Assembly (NCBI GenBank): GCA_002685075.1
Contig: NYWO01000108.1
Location: 27,281-91,280, forward strand
DNA: 64,000 bases
Direction of reading: 5' to 3'
Source of the DNA: Arcobacter sp.
GTDB taxonomy: Bacteria > Campylobacterota > Campylobacteria > Campylobacterales > Arcobacteraceae
Shown here: piece after piece, positions 24,362 through 57,732 of the stretch
How positions within the stretch are numbered: the first letter of the stretch is position 1
How the letters are laid out: every line of letters begins with the position of its first letter
The notes under the pieces: generated by a model
Seen by the model: only the letters and a program-made list of their open reading frames with translations
What the model was told of the DNA's origin: nothing
The model's database searches: none
Program-made: the position numbers and the translations under genes

Positions 24362-25093
24362 ATGTATGATTTAGCTGTTTTTGGAATTATAACTGGTTTT
24401 ATATCAGGCTTTTTCGGAGTTGGGGGAGGTATGATTTTAGTACCAATGCTTTTAGTCTCTGGTTTTGTAATGAAAGAAGCAGTAGCTATCTCTATTATGC
24501 AAATGGTATTTTCATCAATATATGGTTCATTTTTAAATTCAAAGAAATTTACAAATGTAATTAAAGATGGAATTATAATAGGTATTGGTGGTTTTGTAGG
24601 TGGCTTACAAAGTGGATATATTGTAACAAATGTATCTAATGAATTTTTACAATATCTATTTATTCTAATTTTATTTTACTCAATAATAAAAATATTTATA
24701 ACTCCAGCAGAACATGATTGTGATCAAAGATCAAAGAACAAACTTACACTATTTATTATCGGTTTCTTTACAGGACTGCTTGCTATGAGTATTGGAGTTG
24801 GAGGTTCTGTAATATTAACTCCTATTTTAATAGGTTTTTTAAAGTATGACTTAAAAGCAGCAACTGCACTTGGACTGTTCTTTGTAATATTTTCATCAAT
24901 TGCTGGATTTACTTCTTTATCATTAAGTGGACATATGCTTTATACCGAAGGTGCTATTATTGGTATTTGTTCTTTAATAGGTGTTTATTTTGGAATTTTG
25001 CTTAAAAATAAAGTTCACTCTAATTCATATAAAAAATATATTCTAGTTTTAAATACTATTATATTAGTAACTATGATTTATAAAACATTTTAA
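24362..25093 (+). CDS. TauE/SafE family sulfite exporter-like membrane protein
   Basis: FGIITGFISGFFGVGGGMILVPMLL and repeated FFTGLLAMSIGVGGSVILTPIL. Confidence 0.9.
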   Translation: MYDLAVFGIITGFISGFFGVGGGMILVPMLLVSGFVMKEAVAISIMQMVFSSIYGSFLNSKKFTNVIKDGIIIGIGGFVGGLQSGYIVTNVSNEFLQYLFILILFYSIIKIFITPAEHDCDQRSKNKLTLFIIGFFTGLLAMSIGVGGSVILTPILIGFLKYDLKAATALGLFFVIFSSIAGFTSLSLSGHMLYTEGAIIGICSLIGVYFGILLKNKVHSNSYKKYILVLNTIILVTMIYKTF

Positions 25094-25153: not shown

Positions 25154-25196
25154 AGATAAAAAAGATTACGCGAACGATCTTTTTTATCTTCTTTTT
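25154..25196. terminator. Bidirectional hairpin terminator between convergent genes
   Basis: AGATAAAAAAGAT - TACGCGAACG - ATCTTTTTTATCT perfect 13-bp arms, followed by T-rich tail. Confidence 0.8.
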
Positions 25197-25216: not shown

Positions 25217-27670
25217 TTAATTTAAATTGTCTTTTAATAGATACTCTAAAACTCCACCATACTTATAGTACTCAACTTCAATACTTGTATCTAATCTAGA
25301 TTGTAAAGTAAGAACCTTACTTTGATTGTTTTTAAAAATTTCTATATCTATTTTATCATTTACTTTTAATCTATTAGTTTTTATATTTATAAGCTCATCA
25401 CCTTTTAACTTTAAAGAGTCAATATCATCATCAATAAACTCTAAAGGTAAAATACCTACTCTTATCAGATCTTTTTTATACTCTTTTGAAAAAGATTTAG
25501 CAATGATTACTTCAACACCTAAAAGTTTTAATCCTTTTACAGCCCAATCATTTATCTCCCCGATTCCAAACCTACTTCCTGCAAAGAGTACTAGAGGAAT
25601 TTTATTTTCTTTCATTTTAAGTGAAAAATCATATATTGGCATAATTTCACTACTTTGAAAATCTTTTGTATAACCACCCTCTTTTGGACTTACCATTTTG
25701 TTTTTAAGTTTACTATTTGATAAAATTGATTTTATAATTACATTACTATTTGCATATCTATTCTCAAAAGTATCAAACTCATCAGGTCGTAGCCCTTTTG
25801 ATTGAAGAAATAAAGCTGTTGGAGAATAAGATGGTATTCTACCCTTAGCAGATATATCTTCACTTGAAATATTATCATCAAAAAGTGCTAAGATTCTTGC
25901 ATTTTTAATATCAATATATTCTATATTCTTTTTATTAAAAATATCTGTTTTATAAAGATAGGTAGAATTTGTATCCCAATCAAAAGTTTTATCTTTTTCA
26001 TATACTAATTCTTGCCAATAATTATTCCCAATAAAAATATCTTTATATAAATCTTTATAAACAGAATAATCAAGTTTTTCTAAGTATTCATTTACTTCAT
26101 TCATACTTGGCCAAATATTTGATAAAAAAATATCTTGAGTTATACTCTCTTTTGTAATATCAAAATCTAAATTACCTTTTAAACAATAAGCAACTAATAG
26201 TGCAGGAGAAAATAGCCATTTAGATTTAGTAAATCTATTTTTTTTGATTTCTTCAATATCATTTGAAAAAGCAATATACGATACATTTAAATTATATTTA
26301 TCTATATCCAAAGAAACAGTTTCATTAAGAGAGATATCTTTTTTCTCTTTTATAATAAAACCCAATTGTTCTAAATATTTAAATAAGTCTAATTTCTCTA
26401 AAAACTGCTTTTGTACTAAGGAGTCAAAAGTTATAAATCTAGCAATATTTTTATTTATTCTAATACCTAAGTCACAAGCTTTTTTTGCAATTAAGCAAGC
26501 TTGTATCAATAAAGAAGGATTAGTTGTATTTTTACAAATATCTATAAGAGCTAAAACAATATCATTATCTTTAACAAATTTTCCTTTTTTAAAGGTTTTT
26601 AGCTTATTAGCTATTTCTTTTACTAAAAACTCTTCTTCAAGAGTTTTTAAAGCAATTCCAATTGGCATAACTTTTGATAAGTCTAATTCGATTTGTTCTT
26701 CATATTCTGTATATTGTTCTATATCTTTTGATAAATATAGCATTTGCTTTTCATAATATGTTTTAATTAAAGAAGCATTAACTCCTCTTGTTTGTTCAAT
26801 AAAAAATATAGTATTATCGTCAATAGGAAAATATCCACAAACTCCTTTATACTGCGAAATAAGTTTTGATAACACTGTTCTATCTTCTAAAGATATATTT
26901 TTTAAGCCTCGTCCATAAAACTCTACAATTTTTCCATTTATATTATTATTTTTTATTATATTTTTTAAACTTATAAGAACATCATTGAAACTTGTTCCTT
27001 GAGCTAATGAGCCTGTAATTTTTATACCAATAGTTTTAGGAAGCTCAAAAGAAATAGAAGAACCTAACATAACAGATTGGATTTCAAGTCTTCCTACATT
27101 TAAAGAAAGTACACCTAAAGAATTAAGCTGTGAACTGTGAAAATCTGTACCAAGTATTGCTTCTGGAAAAATTACAACTTTTTCTTCTGTCATTTTCATT
27201 GAAAGCATTGTGGATAAGTATTCTAAGTTTACTTGATTTAAATTATTAATATTTGGAGGAATTATAGATATATTTTCAAAAGTATTTCCATAATACTTTA
27301 AAAAAGTATATCTTTCTTTATTTTTTTGTTCATTACTATCTTTATTATCAACTACAACATCAATCATTATTTTAGGACTTAAATTTTTACTTGCTGAAAT
27401 AAAATCAACTAAAGCAGGAACTGCATTAAATTCATTCATTATAATTCTATTTGAATAAAATTTTATTTGCTTTAAATGATTTCTATTTACAAAGGTATTT
27501 ATAATCTTTTCAATATCATTTTCATCAGCATTTCTAATATTTGCTTCTAATAATATCTTTAATGAATATGGAAGTTTTTTTAATTTTGAAGAATATTCAA
27601 AAACTTTTTTTAAGTCACAATAATAATATTTTTTTTGATTAAAATCAAAACTATTTAAAAATCTATTCAA
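25217..27670 (-). CDS. AcnA/IRP-type aconitase-fold protein with degenerate active site (putative pseudoenzyme)
   Basis: 817-aa intact ORF with scaffold motifs of AcnA (LPYSLKILLEA, QVNLEYLS, GKIVEFYGRGLKNISLEDRTVLSKLISQYKGVCGYFPID, DWAVKGLKLLGVEVIIAKSF, VGILPLEF), but catalytic and Fe-S motifs altered. Confidence 0.9.
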   Translation of the reverse strand: MNRFLNSFDFNQKKYYYCDLKKVFEYSSKLKKLPYSLKILLEANIRNADENDIEKIINTFVNRNHLKQIKFYSNRIIMNEFNAVPALVDFISASKNLSPKIMIDVVVDNKDSNEQKNKERYTFLKYYGNTFENISIIPPNINNLNQVNLEYLSTMLSMKMTEEKVVIFPEAILGTDFHSSQLNSLGVLSLNVGRLEIQSVMLGSSISFELPKTIGIKITGSLAQGTSFNDVLISLKNIIKNNNINGKIVEFYGRGLKNISLEDRTVLSKLISQYKGVCGYFPIDDNTIFFIEQTRGVNASLIKTYYEKQMLYLSKDIEQYTEYEEQIELDLSKVMPIGIALKTLEEEFLVKEIANKLKTFKKGKFVKDNDIVLALIDICKNTTNPSLLIQACLIAKKACDLGIRINKNIARFITFDSLVQKQFLEKLDLFKYLEQLGFIIKEKKDISLNETVSLDIDKYNLNVSYIAFSNDIEEIKKNRFTKSKWLFSPALLVAYCLKGNLDFDITKESITQDIFLSNIWPSMNEVNEYLEKLDYSVYKDLYKDIFIGNNYWQELVYEKDKTFDWDTNSTYLYKTDIFNKKNIEYIDIKNARILALFDDNISSEDISAKGRIPSYSPTALFLQSKGLRPDEFDTFENRYANSNVIIKSILSNSKLKNKMVSPKEGGYTKDFQSSEIMPIYDFSLKMKENKIPLVLFAGSRFGIGEINDWAVKGLKLLGVEVIIAKSFSKEYKKDLIRVGILPLEFIDDDIDSLKLKGDELINIKTNRLKVNDKIDIEIFKNNQSKVLTLQSRLDTSIEVEYYKYGGVLEYLLKDNLN

Positions 27671-27861
27671 AGCTCTTCACTCCGTTATTTTTCTTAATTA
27701 AAAAGTATCTAAATTTACTTTAATAATTAATTATAAATAATTAAAATTCTTCCATAAAAATATAAGTTTACAATTTATATAAAAGCATAGAAAATTTAAT
27801 CAATAATTATCTAAGAGTATAATATAATATTAGCTTCAAAAATTTAAAGGCTAATATAATT

Positions 27862-30672
27862 ATGACAGATACTATAAAAATTTTTAATGCTAAAGAAAAC
27901 AACTTAAAAAATATTAATTTAGAAATACCAAAAAATAAACTAATCGTATTTACAGGACTATCAGGCTCTGGAAAATCTACACTTGCATTTGATACACTTT
28001 ATGCAGAAGGACAAAGAAGATATATTGAATCATTATCTGCTTATGCTAGACAATTTTTAGATAAAGTTGGAAAACCTGATGTTGAAAGAATTGAAGGCTT
28101 AACACCAGCAATTGCAATTGACCAAAAAACAACTTCTAAAAATCCACGTTCAACTGTTGGAACAATTACAGAAGTTTATGATTACTTAAGACTTTTATAT
28201 GCAAGAATTGGAAAACAACATTGTCATAAATGTGGAGAACCAATTTCACAAATGAGTGCATCAGATGTAATTAATCAAGTTTTAACACTTCCTCAAAACT
28301 CCAAAATTGTAATTTTAGCACCTCTTATAAACAGAAAAAAAGGTACTTTTGCTGATTTACTAGAATCTTTAAGAGGTAAAGGTTATGTAAGAGCCATGAT
28401 TGATGGAGTGATGGTTAGACTTGATGAAGAAATAGAACTTGGTAAATCAAAAATGCATACAATCAAAGTCGTAATTGATAGAGTTGTAGTAAAAGAAGAA
28501 AACAAAGAAAGAATCGCTCAAGATGTTGAAAAAGGTTTAAAAGAGAGCTTTGGAGAACTTGAAATTGAAGTACTAAATCATGAAGATGTTGGAGTTGAAA
28601 AACATATTCATTACTCTGAGCATATGGCATGTTTTGATTGTAAAATTTCCTTTGAACCTTTAGAGCCTTTATCTTTTTCCTTTAATTCACCAAAAGGTGC
28701 ATGCTCATCATGTGATGGTTTAGGTATTAGATACGCACTTGATATGAAAAAAGTAATAAATGAAGAACTTCCTATTGAAGAAGGGGCTGTTAGAGTAATC
28801 TATGGTTTTAACAAAGGTTTTTACTTTAAAATGCTTACTGCTTTTTGTGAAGCTGCAGATATTAATACAACAATTCCATTTAAAGAATTACCAGAACATC
28901 AAAGAAAAGCAATACTTCATGGTGGAATAGAAGAAGCAAAGTTTGTATGGAAAAAACATAGCTTAAAAAGAAAATGGGAAGGTGTTGTAAAAATTGCCTA
29001 TGATATGGTTAAAGATGAAAAAGAGATGGCTGAATATATGACTGAAAAAGCATGTAGTGATTGTAATGGAAATAGATTGAAACCATCATCTCAAAGTGTT
29101 TATGTTGCAGGTAAAACAATAGGAGATATTCTAAATATTCCTATTGAAGATTCTCATAAATTTTTTCAAGATGAAAAAAACTTTAAATATTTATCAGACC
29201 AAGGTAAATTAATTGCAAAACCAATATTAAAAGAAGTTCAAGAAAGAGTCTATTTTTTATATGATGTAGGACTTGGATATATTACACTAGGACGTGATGC
29301 TAGAACTATTTCAGGAGGAGAAGCACAAAGAATTAGAGTCGCTTCTCAAATTGGTTCTGGACTTACTGGAGTAATGTATGTTTTAGACGAACCTTCAATT
29401 GGCTTACATGAAAGAGATACAAGTAAACTTATTAAAACACTTCGAGCCTTACAAGAAAAAGGTAATACTGTAATTGTAGTTGAACATGATAAAGAGACTA
29501 TTGAGGCAGCTGATTACATTGTAGATATTGGTCCACATGCTGGAAAGTTTGGTGGAGAAATCGTATTTGATGGAACACTGAAAAAAATGCTAAAAGCAAA
29601 GACTCTTACTGCAAAATATTTAACGGGTGAAAAGAAAATTGATTATGTTCATAATAGGCCACAAGAAGAGTTTATAGAAATAAAAAATGTAAGTATAAAT
29701 AATATCAAGGATTTAAGTCTTCAAATACCACTTAAAAATTTATGTGCAATTACAGGAGTTTCAGGAAGTGGTAAATCATCTCTTATCTTACAAACTTTAT
29801 TACCTGTTGCTAAAGAATTATTAAATCATGCAAGAAAAGTTAAAAAAGTTGATGGTGTAGAGATTGCAGGTTTAGAAAAACTTGATAAAGTTATCTATCT
29901 TGATCAAAGTCCAATAGGAAGAACTCCTAGATCAAACCCAGCAACATATACAGGCTTAATGGACGAATTAAGACTATTATTTTCAAAAACAAAAGAAGCA
30001 GAAATAAGAGGTTATAAAATTGGTCGTTTCTCTTTTAACGTAAAAGGTGGACGTTGTGAAAAATGTCAAGGCGAAGGTGAAATCAAAATTGAAATGCACT
30101 TTTTACCAGATATCATGGTTAAATGTGATGATTGTGCTGGTCAAAGATATAATGCACAAACTTTAGAAATTTTATACAAAGGTAAAAGTATTTCTGATGT
30201 ATTAAATATGAGTGTTGATGAAGCTCTTGAGTTCTTTGTAAAAATTCCAAAAATTCATGCAAAACTTCAAACATTAAGTGATGTTGGTCTTGGATATATT
30301 ACTTTAGGCCAAAATGCAGTAACACTTTCTGGTGGTGAAGCACAAAGAATTAAATTAAGTAAAGAGTTAAGTAAAAAAGATACTGGAAATACTTTATATA
30401 TTTTAGATGAACCAACAACTGGACTTCATTTTGCTGATGTTGATAGACTTACAAAAGTATTACATCATTTAGTTGATTTAGGAAACTCTGTAATTGTAAT
30501 TGAGCATAATTTAGATGTAGTTAAAAACTCTGATTGGGTTATTGATATGGGTCCTGAAGGTGGAAATAAAGGTGGTTTACTTGTAGATGAAGGAACACCT
30601 GAGCAAGTTGCAGCAAATCATAAAAAATCTGGCTCTCATACAGGTTACTATTTAGCAAAGGAGATAAAATAA
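27862..30672 (+). CDS. uvrA: Excinuclease ABC subunit A
   Basis: Two ABC modules (GLSGSGKSTLAFDTLYAEGQRRYIESLSAYARQFL; TGVSGSGKSSLI), Zn fingers (CxxC), 936 aa. Confidence 0.98.
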   Translation: MTDTIKIFNAKENNLKNINLEIPKNKLIVFTGLSGSGKSTLAFDTLYAEGQRRYIESLSAYARQFLDKVGKPDVERIEGLTPAIAIDQKTTSKNPRSTVGTITEVYDYLRLLYARIGKQHCHKCGEPISQMSASDVINQVLTLPQNSKIVILAPLINRKKGTFADLLESLRGKGYVRAMIDGVMVRLDEEIELGKSKMHTIKVVIDRVVVKEENKERIAQDVEKGLKESFGELEIEVLNHEDVGVEKHIHYSEHMACFDCKISFEPLEPLSFSFNSPKGACSSCDGLGIRYALDMKKVINEELPIEEGAVRVIYGFNKGFYFKMLTAFCEAADINTTIPFKELPEHQRKAILHGGIEEAKFVWKKHSLKRKWEGVVKIAYDMVKDEKEMAEYMTEKACSDCNGNRLKPSSQSVYVAGKTIGDILNIPIEDSHKFFQDEKNFKYLSDQGKLIAKPILKEVQERVYFLYDVGLGYITLGRDARTISGGEAQRIRVASQIGSGLTGVMYVLDEPSIGLHERDTSKLIKTLRALQEKGNTVIVVEHDKETIEAADYIVDIGPHAGKFGGEIVFDGTLKKMLKAKTLTAKYLTGEKKIDYVHNRPQEEFIEIKNVSINNIKDLSLQIPLKNLCAITGVSGSGKSSLILQTLLPVAKELLNHARKVKKVDGVEIAGLEKLDKVIYLDQSPIGRTPRSNPATYTGLMDELRLLFSKTKEAEIRGYKIGRFSFNVKGGRCEKCQGEGEIKIEMHFLPDIMVKCDDCAGQRYNAQTLEILYKGKSISDVLNMSVDEALEFFVKIPKIHAKLQTLSDVGLGYITLGQNAVTLSGGEAQRIKLSKELSKKDTGNTLYILDEPTTGLHFADVDRLTKVLHHLVDLGNSVIVIEHNLDVVKNSDWVIDMGPEGGNKGGLLVDEGTPEQVAANHKKSGSHTGYYLAKEIK

Positions 30673-37324: not shown

Positions 37325-38620
37325 GTGAATGAACAAAGTCCTTGGGAAAAGCGTTTTTATAGAGAAAGAAATGCTAGAAAGGAAGCTGAAGAACTTTTAG
37401 AAAGAAAAAGTACAGAAGTCTATAATATTAATAAAAATTTAGAAAAATCGATATATGAAAGAACTCTAGAATTAGAAGAGGCTTTAAAATCTGCAAATAT
37501 AGCAAAAGAAGTTAAATCAAATTTTCTAGCAAATATGTCACATGAAATTAGGACACCAATGAATGGAATCATTGGTTTTACTGAATTACTTCTAGAAACA
37601 AAACTTGATAAAAAACAAAAAGAATATGTAGATATAATTGAGTCATCAACTAAAACATTAATGTCAGTAATAAATGATATTTTAGATTTTTCAAAAATCG
37701 AAAGTGGAAAAACTGAAATTGAATTAATTGAAGTTGATATTTTAAAAGAGTTAACAAGTAACATTTTACTATTTTCTAAAGATGCACAGAAAAAAGAGAT
37801 AAACTATAGTTTCAATATTGATGAAAAAATAGCTAAGGATTTATATGTAGATATTCATAAAATAAAGCAAGTTTTATCTAACCTAATTAATAATGCCATA
37901 AAATTTACAGATAAAAATAAAAAAGTTACTATAGATGTAAAGTTAAAAGAAGATTTAAACAATAAGCAAAGAATATTATTTTCAGTTAAAGATGAAGGAT
38001 TAGGAATACATCCTAATAAACAAAGTAAAATCTTTGAAGCCTTTACACAAGCAGATAACTCAACTACTAGAAAGTTTGGTGGAACAGGACTTGGTTTAAA
38101 TATCTCCTCTACTATTGTAAAATTATTAGGAGGAGAGTTACAATTAGAAAGTGAAGAAAATATTGGTAGCAAATTCTTTTTTGAACTTGAATTTGAAAAA
38201 GTACAGAATAAACAAAAAAATAAAATTCAAATTTTAGATTCTAAGACTACCGAATATAACCAAAATTTAAATATCTTAGTTGTTGATGATAATGAAATTA
38301 ATTTACTTCTTATTTCAGAAGTTCTTAAAAATCTTAATATAAAATTTGTTCTAGCTATAGATGGACAAGATGCTATTAATAAATGTAAAGAAGAAAACTT
38401 TGATATTATTTTAATGGATATAAACATGCCTATTTTAAATGGAATAGAAACTGCTCATATTTTAAGAAGTGAGTATAAAATAAAAGCTCCAATTATTGCC
38501 TTAACAGCTAATTCACTTGAAGGTGATAAAGAAAAATTTATAAAAAATGGTATGGATGATTATTTATCTAAACCTTTTAATGTAGATAAATTTAAAACTT
38601 TAATAAATAAATTTTCTTAA
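37325..38620 (+). CDS. Hybrid histidine kinase with C-terminal receiver domain (HnoK-like by context; GTG start)
   Basis: [37 protein letters not shown] domain [16 protein letters not shown]; no recognisable own sensor domain. Confidence 0.9.
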
Positions 38621-56300: not shown

Positions 56301-56427
56301 ATGTCAGCCGAACTGTTAAAATAATCAAGTAAATTTAGACTAAAACCAGATCAATATTATATAATTTTGTATATTAATACAAATTTTACAAAATTGAGAT
56401 AAACTAAAGATATCAAAGGGATAAGTT

Positions 56428-57732
56428 ATGAGCATCAGATTTAAATTTAGTTTTATGATATTTGTTTTATTGACATCTGTATTTATTAATATATCATTTA
56501 TCTATTTATTGGAAAAATACAGTTCAAATAAACTTCTTGCAGTTAATGATACACATGAAATTATTATTGCTTCTAATAAACTAATAAGTCTTATCAATGA
56601 TGCAGAAACAGGTCAAAGAGGATATTTACTTACCCAAAATTTAGAATATCTTGAACCCTATCATATTGGAAAAAGGGATCTTTTTATAGTACTTGAATTT
56701 TTAACAAAGCAGGTTCAAGATGAGGAACAAAAAGAGAATTTAAAAAACTTAAAAAAACTTATCACAGAAAAATTTTCTGATATGCAAAAAACAATTGATT
56801 TAGGAAAAAATAATCAATTTGATGAAGCTATAAACTATGTAAAAAGAGGTATAGGGAAAAACTATATGGATCAAGTTAAAGCTGTGACAGCAAAATTTAT
56901 CTATAGAGAAAATTTTTTATTACAAACACGAAAAGGGAACTACCAATCAAACAGAGTAACTATTATGACCCTTATGTATGTGGAACTTACTTTTATTATA
57001 TTATTTAGTTTATTGGCATGGTTTATCGTCTCAAAATCATTTTTTGAACCTTTAAAACTTCTTGTTAATAGTACCAAAAAAGTTGAGAGTGGAGAAAAAA
57101 TAGATATTAATGAGATCACAACGCAAGATGAAATGGGATATTTAATAGCAAATTTTTATAAAATGCATGAAAAAATCATAGAAAGAGAGAATCATCTATC
57201 TCATATTGCAACACATGATACTCTGACCTCTTTAGCAAATAGAGTAAAATTATATGAATATTTAGATACCTCTTTACAAAATGCAAATGATACAAATACA
57301 CAAACATATGTATTATTTATGGATTTAAATAAATTTAAAATTATCAACGATACATTTGGTCATGAAGCAGGAGATCTTATGCTTCAAACTGCAGCAAAAA
57401 GATTTAAGAGTATTCTTCGAGAAGAAGATGAATTATTTAGAATTGGAGGAGATGAGTTTTTAATAGTTATTCAAAATATTATAGAGCAATCACAAATAGA
57501 TGTAATCATTAAAAAGCTATTGGATTCTACCTTTGAACCGATTAATTACAACACACATAAAATGGAACTCTCTGTAAGTATAGGTATATCTTCATATCCT
57601 GATACAGCAAATAATAAAGAAGAACTAATCAAGTCAGCCGATATAGCGATGTATGAAGCGAAAAAGAATAGTGAAGAGAACTTTGCATATTTTAATAAAA
57701 GTATGATGAGAAGAAAATCCGACAAAATTTAG
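56428..57732 (+). CDS. Diguanylate cyclase: CHASE3-like sensor, HAMP, GGDEF
   Basis: INDAETGQRGYLLTQNLEYLEPY (CHASE3), HAMP after TM2, ILREEDELFRIGGDEFLIVI, ISIGISSYPDTANNKEELIKSADIAMYEAKKN. Confidence 0.92.
   Translation: MSIRFKFSFMIFVLLTSVFINISFIYLLEKYSSNKLLAVNDTHEIIIASNKLISLINDAETGQRGYLLTQNLEYLEPYHIGKRDLFIVLEFLTKQVQDEEQKENLKNLKKLITEKFSDMQKTIDLGKNNQFDEAINYVKRGIGKNYMDQVKAVTAKFIYRENFLLQTRKGNYQSNRVTIMTLMYVELTFIILFSLLAWFIVSKSFFEPLKLLVNSTKKVESGEKIDINEITTQDEMGYLIANFYKMHEKIIERENHLSHIATHDTLTSLANRVKLYEYLDTSLQNANDTNTQTYVLFMDLNKFKIINDTFGHEAGDLMLQTAAKRFKSILREEDELFRIGGDEFLIVIQNIIEQSQIDVIIKKLLDSTFEPINYNTHKMELSVSIGISSYPDTANNKEELIKSADIAMYEAKKNSEENFAYFNKSMMRRKSDKI

Follow-up and report, generated by a model that had tools for sequence, protein, structure and literature searches.

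A probable AcnA-derived pseudoenzyme family with a putative macromolecule-binding role at a conserved locus in Arcobacteraceae

Why would a bacterium keep a full-length aconitase scaffold in which the residues that carry the chemistry have been replaced? The question is raised by a single gene in a stretch of 64,000 nucleotides from an Arcobacter sp. genome, referred to here as the window. Aconitase is a classic example of moonlighting, an enzyme when it carries its cluster and a regulator when it does not. The best overall explanation, which we consider likely, is that the gene encodes a pseudoenzyme derived from AcnA and a putative macromolecule-binding protein.

An intact aconitase-like protein with a degraded active site

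The pseudo-aconitase gene (25217..27670, minus strand) encodes an 817 amino acid protein of AcnA/IRP1 architecture. Its 817 codons contain no internal stop, and the TTG start at 27670 is preceded nine bases upstream by the Shine-Dalgarno sequence GGAG. Pfam places aconitase domains 1-3 at residues 55-499 (PF00330, Aconitase, 186 bits; 26174..27508, minus strand) and the C-terminal swivel domain at residues 619-745 (PF00694, Aconitase_C, 74 bits; 25436..25816, minus strand), and the AcnA/IRP domain order is present over the full length of the protein. The NCBIfam AcnA model NF006757 aligns with residues 6-816 at 598 bits and does not reach its cut-off of 686; the other NCBIfam AcnA models also miss theirs (582 bits against 945 and 556 bits against 905). 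Among solved structures, human IRP1 is the best sequence match (E 5e-112), and IRP2 and a cytoplasmic aconitate hydratase rank with it as the closest. AlphaFold, given the window protein together with 26 relatives, predicts an aconitase fold with confidence (mean pLDDT 88.3, pTM 0.87), and in Foldseek the resulting model matched IRP1 and a modelled B. subtilis AcnA with TM-scores of 0.75-0.81, normalised to the query. The open reading frame, the Pfam and NCBIfam matches and the match to IRP1 confirm the original prediction of an uninterrupted 817-residue protein on an AcnA/IRP scaffold.

Active-site and cluster residues were scored in an alignment whose other members were E. coli AcnA, a canonical AcnA encoded by another Arcobacteraceae genome (L040) and eight Arcobacteraceae AcnDs; the AcnD of the window genome was compared as well. 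Residue numbers are presumed to follow pig mitochondrial aconitase, onto which they were mapped by motif. In domains 1-3 the D100-H101, GTDSHT, N258/E262, C358, C421/C424 and R447/R452 motifs are degraded through the changes H101→N, H147→N, S166→F, N258→K, E262→Q, R447→D and R452→K. The other substitutions are D568→E, R580→Y, S642→E, S643→I and R644→N, the last four assigned to the swivel domain. Both the catalytic base and the substrate arginines are absent, with Ser642, R447, R452, R580 and R644 reading E, D, K, Y and N. Of the three cluster cysteines only C358 is present (C379 of the protein), C421 and C424 having gone with a 7-residue loop deletion. Every motif change listed in the original prediction, including retention of the first Fe-S cysteine and loss of both others, was reproduced against E. 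coli AcnA and the AcnD of the same genome. By this scoring, the window protein retains 5 of 18 near-invariant positions in the active site and cluster compared to 95 of 175 near-invariant positions elsewhere. The canonical proteins in the alignment keep every scored position except the first arginine of GSRR, which is a histidine in AcnD. Ser642 is the catalytic base of mitochondrial aconitase and its replacement abolishes activity; the PDB entry 1c96, an S642A variant with citrate bound, is consistent with this role.

Among the 34 full-length orthologs described below, mean retention is 0.42 at active-site positions versus 0.62 at other canonical-invariant positions (P = 0.004; P = 0.015 when only polar canonical-invariant positions are compared). 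S642 is present in a single ortholog, and S642, S643, R447, R452, R580 and R644 all belong to the most variable fifth of ortholog columns, with no replacement consensus. The missing consensus at most of the lost positions disfavors new chemistry in the same cleft. A cleft rebuilt for a different, cluster-free reaction would fit the continued conservation of D100 (30/34), D165 (28/34) and the first arginine of GSRR (33/34), but most cleft positions vary even within a genus, and the positions that are newly conserved among orthologs are scattered along the chain and mostly lie off the motifs, which makes such an enzyme highly improbable. The possibility that other cysteines rescue the cluster was rejected, as no new cysteine column comes near conservation; the commonest extra cysteine, at residue 278 in 24 of the 34 orthologs, is also a cysteine in E. 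coli AcnA.

The best-preserved ortholog, L022 (the same locus as L081), keeps 16 of 18 canonical residues, the three cluster cysteines among them, and exceeds the cut-off of the AcnA equivalog model TIGR01341. Three further orthologs (L016, L034 and L039) also hold all three cysteines. L022 could retain some activity, and the family would be mixed if its least degraded members were working aconitases and only some branches, Poseidonibacter included, were dead. However, L022 carries N-T-R where S642-S643-R644 is expected and K in place of R452, and the rarity of S642 throughout the family speaks against this reading as well, so that we consider it quite unlikely. The family is very probably one of cluster-free pseudoenzymes under purifying selection, kept for fold and surface rather than for the active site.

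Occurrence, descent and selection at one locus

Relatives were identified by searching genome contigs with a 19-member alignment; the window protein as a single query retrieved none. Full-length open orthologs with 36-85% identity are encoded in 34 of 107 Arcobacteraceae genomes, the window genome included, and the gene is not a local oddity. Among named relatives, Poseidonibacter lekithochrous (84% protein identity) comes nearest to the window genome, followed by P. ostreae (72%). Two of the 107 genomes carry orthologs shortened in frame, which lack approximately residues 334-531, the domain carrying the cluster cysteines, and keep the remainder. These lie at L042:4847-6715 and L043:4859-6874, and the former has a TTG start too. 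Fragments or broken copies are found in three genomes, G101 and G093 being among those with broken copies. Outside Arcobacteraceae, the 398 genomes of the class yielded AcnD-like matches only (E <= 1e-60). A sequencing or frameshift artefact is ruled out by the presence of 34 intact orthologs at one locus.

The pseudo-aconitase gene is divergent from uvrA (27862..30672, plus strand), as originally predicted, and convergent with a gene (24362..25093, plus strand) that we take, from its sequence by eye, to encode a TSUP-family (sulfite exporter-like) permease. Both neighbors are syntenic in most orthologous loci. The TSUP-uvrA position is common to nearly all loci examined, including those of orthologs down to 36% identity, with extra genes sometimes inserted, and this conserved place indicates vertical descent. 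Recent horizontal gain of a diverged aconitase is ruled out by the same synteny within Arcobacteraceae. Clean loss, with the TSUP gene directly adjoining uvrA, is seen in four genomes (G059, G088, G014 and G083); clean losses and broken copies together indicate that the pseudo-aconitase can be dispensed with, and no linked partner gene accompanies it. Its junction with uvrA or with the TSUP gene holds varied inserted genes (L059, L060, L063, L068-L070, L075), several of them weakly similar to a 435-codon ORF (56425-57729) or to a histidine-kinase-like ORF (at 37325) of the window, and from these arrangements the junction looks like an insertion hotspot.

A conserved promoter-like or 5' leader region that includes the Shine-Dalgarno GGAG extends over 27671..27760 (minus strand). 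The 85 nt upstream of the gene differ by 5% from P. lekithochrous versus 28% at 4-fold sites, and by 5-32% across congeners versus 28-53% at 4-fold sites. This excess persists in congeners in which other genes separate the pseudo-aconitase from uvrA. The whole 190-bp intergenic region (27671-27861; L056-L058) has a mean column identity of 92% among four Poseidonibacter-type genomes, higher than that of coding sequence, and contains an inverted repeat, TTAGC...GCTAA, on the uvrA side. Consensus promoter and terminator scans around the gene gave results near background. Between the convergent genes, an AT-rich perfect 13-bp inverted repeat (AGATAAAAAAGAT...ATCTTTTTTATCT; 25155..25190) with a short GC-containing loop (tacgcgaacg) was read by eye and was missed by a G+C-based terminator scan; it is a possible bidirectional terminator. 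The TTG start is found in 28 of the 34 orthologs and a recognizable Shine-Dalgarno sequence in 31, while an ATG that could serve instead lies within 60 codons in almost none. Conservation of a weak start codon suggests that output may be deliberately low.

In a quick tree, the 34 orthologs form a single clade separate from AcnA and AcnD (SH-aLRT 100). The changes required on this tree number two for S642, six for C421, four for C424, eight for C358, five for R580 and nine for R644. Most simply, S642 was lost once at the root and returned once, in L026. Because S642 needs two changes and the other residues four to nine, the catalytic base was most likely lost first, with the other residues following in parallel across lineages. 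Loss across the orthologs is concentrated at the active site and, as reconstructed here, stepwise; the coordinated loss envisaged in the original prediction is not borne out by the tree, on which orthologs lost different subsets independently.

The pseudo-aconitase evolves under constraint, although faster than its neighbors. Between the window and five congeners its dN/dS (Nei-Gojobori) is 0.19-0.27, approximately three to five times the values for neighboring genes (uvrA, TSUP, cysE, speA, hisS and CorC, 0.02-0.13); acnD gives 0.09-0.11. At the larger distances, synonymous substitutions have reached partial saturation. The higher dN/dS of the pseudo-aconitase implies that part of the change represents relaxed constraint. 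The window and P. lekithochrous share 84% identity in this protein and mostly 90-98% in flanking proteins. When base changes as at 4-fold sites between these two were simulated neutrally, a mean of 70 stops (minimum 48) was expected, and none is observed. With an intact frame and a dN/dS far below 1, the gene displays neither the disruption nor the neutral evolution of a pseudogene.

A relic in slow decay, meaning a weakly constrained AcnA copy that is no longer needed and whose disruption is yet to come, would fit the fast evolution, the several clean losses, the few broken copies and the parallel, patternless loss of active-site residues. It is very unlikely given 34 full-length ORFs across deep divergence, the low dN/dS, the lack of stops even where sister species are compared, the 116 columns in which conservation among orthologs reaches at least 90%, and a promoter region and TTG start with Shine-Dalgarno that are themselves conserved. 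The search for orthologs and the dN/dS measurement had both been proposed with the original prediction, and its view that selection maintains a non-catalytic role rather than simple decay taking its course is upheld by dN/dS, the 34 orthologs, the fixed locus and the upstream conservation; the IRP-like and sensor roles that it offered as examples fare less well, as discussed below.

Constraint has also been redistributed along the protein. Residues 1-50 show an identity of 0.53 among orthologs versus 0.32 in canonical AcnA, and residues 501-550 are likewise more constrained in orthologs, whereas residues 151-200, which contain GTDSHT, show 0.47 versus 0.67; in this comparison the canonical set is more diverged than the pseudo-aconitase set.

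Other aconitases and possible functions

A prpB-prpC-acnD-prpF cluster of the window genome contains the gene for a canonical AcnD, and AcnB and LeuC are encoded as well, which answers the question, posed with the original prediction, of whether canonical aconitases exist elsewhere in the genome. A second, canonical AcnA was rejected, AcnB, AcnD and LeuC being the only such proteins besides the pseudo-aconitase. The AcnB sequence (L054, contig C135:1-824) is a C-terminal fragment of a gene cut by the contig end. While the full AcnD lies on contig C67, an AcnD-like fragment of ca. 121 residues (199 bits to TIGR02333) on a contig of its own (C152:7233-7595) represents either contamination or a second copy. 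Across the 107 Arcobacteraceae genomes, AcnB is found in 103 and matches to the AcnD model in 85. A separate locus in a genome with a dead copy, L040:5429-8077 (G034:C5), encodes a fully canonical AcnA with all scored residues, which was probably acquired separately. In Arcobacter butzleri, two aconitate hydratases are predicted, AcnB serving the TCA cycle and AcnD the methylcitrate cycle (PMC2147049). With AcnB and AcnD covering these reactions, neither pathway should need the pseudo-aconitase.

These observations suggest the following scenario. An AcnA lineage would first have lost Ser642, before the carrier Arcobacteraceae genera split, and the [4Fe-4S] ligands and substrate-binding arginines would then have been lost lineage by lineage. 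The resulting protein, with no cluster, citrate isomerization or tricarboxylate binding, would be permanently apo-like and may act by binding another macromolecule, for example in regulating or scaffolding AcnB, AcnD or another TCA-cycle enzyme. The movement of constraint from the active-site cleft to the N-terminus and the domain 3-4 linker favors a protein over RNA as the partner, a preference that we hold tentatively.

An RNA-binding post-transcriptional regulator, performing the IRP/apo-aconitase function without the enzymology and binding mRNAs constitutively, has precedents in M. tuberculosis, whose apo-AcnA binds an IRE-like element (PMC7527780), and in Streptomyces, whose AcnA is described as an IRP-family member (PMC3912134). 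In addition, IRE-bound IRP1 stands near the top of the Foldseek list. IRP1 contacts the IRE loop through S371, K379, R269, T438 and N439 and the C8 bulge through a pocket of S681, P682, D781 and W782 (PMC4184891). The pocket is largely kept in orthologs (S681 26/34, P682 27/34, W782 31/34, D781 20/34) and reads S, A, D and W at S681, P682, D781 and W782 in the window protein, but these residues may be structural. The loop contacts are mostly gone: S371 is found in 4/34, T438 in 11/34 and N439 in 7/34 orthologs, K379 is not conserved and R269 is mostly K. The window protein has I, E, K, K and N at S371, K379, R269, T438 and N439 and does not have the full set of loop contacts. Net charge of the orthologs is not clearly raised (pI 5.2-7.8), and an Rfam search around the gene returned no match. 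The residue pattern is ambiguous and appears to tilt against IRE-type binding, not against other RNA binding; overall, we regard an RNA-binding regulator as rather unlikely.

The other role suggested originally was that of a ligand sensor, which would still bind citrate, methylcitrate or a related acid and signal the status of the TCA cycle. The retained aconitase fold, as predicted, and the presence of sensor-type genes inserted beside uvrA near several orthologs are compatible with sensing. However, the arginines that bind tricarboxylates, four in number, survive in only 12-29% of orthologs and are all absent from the window protein, and the inserted genes differ among species, leaving a sensor as the least probable of the alternatives.

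Returning to the favored reading of a macromolecule-binding pseudoenzyme, the Arcobacteraceae proteins would represent a natural separation of the two halves of the moonlighting aconitase, the chemistry being done by AcnB and AcnD. With the enzymatic half gone, whatever selection preserves would have to be the non-enzymatic half. A pseudo-aconitase free of iron and substrate might then be a dedicated regulator, of RNA or of TCA and methylcitrate enzymes, an IRP-like role split from catalysis and of bacterial origin; this is a conceivable extension that we advance with less than even confidence. The 34 natural variants, whose active sites are degraded to different extents from a common starting point, the loss of Ser642, make a non-catalytic role of aconitase directly testable. 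They also represent an annotation trap: orthologs like L022, although they lack the catalytic base, would be called aconitate hydratase by the NCBIfam AcnA equivalog model.

Comparison with known systems

Searches of the open-access literature for pseudo-aconitases in bacteria and for aconitases in Arcobacter returned no description of Arcobacteraceae pseudo-aconitases, which is not proof of absence. The window protein is tied to bacterial AcnA (TIGR01341/NF006757) by descent, by the order of its domains, by an alignment over the whole length and by its predicted fold; in contrast to AcnA, it has no catalytic base, two cluster ligands fewer and no substrate arginines, and scores under all NCBIfam AcnA cut-offs. 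AcnD (2-methylisocitrate dehydratase, TIGR02333) of the same genomes is a superfamily paralog with ca. 28-32% identity, but it keeps the canonical residues and is encoded in the prpB-prpC-acnD-prpF cluster.

Eukaryotic IRP1 and IRP2 are the closest solved structures, use the aconitase fold without catalysis and mostly share the C8-pocket residues. Unlike the pseudo-aconitases, IRP1 has a full active site, cluster ligands and the IRE-loop contacts. The bacterial apo-aconitase RNA regulators, M. tuberculosis AcnA (PMC7527780) and Streptomyces AcnA (PMC3912134), are similar in that the aconitase fold works outside catalysis; they are active enzymes that switch upon cluster loss, whereas the pseudo-aconitase should not regain a cluster.

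Regulation of active paralogs by pseudoenzymes is well documented (PMC5106787, PMC5201418, PMC3663545). The trypanosome prozyme (PMC5201418) and the dead deoxyhypusine synthase paralog (PMC3663545) resemble the present case in being selected dead paralogs beside active enzymes, although the regulated partner is here only putative. If the inference holds, the family, descended from AcnA and no longer possessing what defines an aconitase, uses the fold without its chemistry in the manner of these pseudoenzymes.
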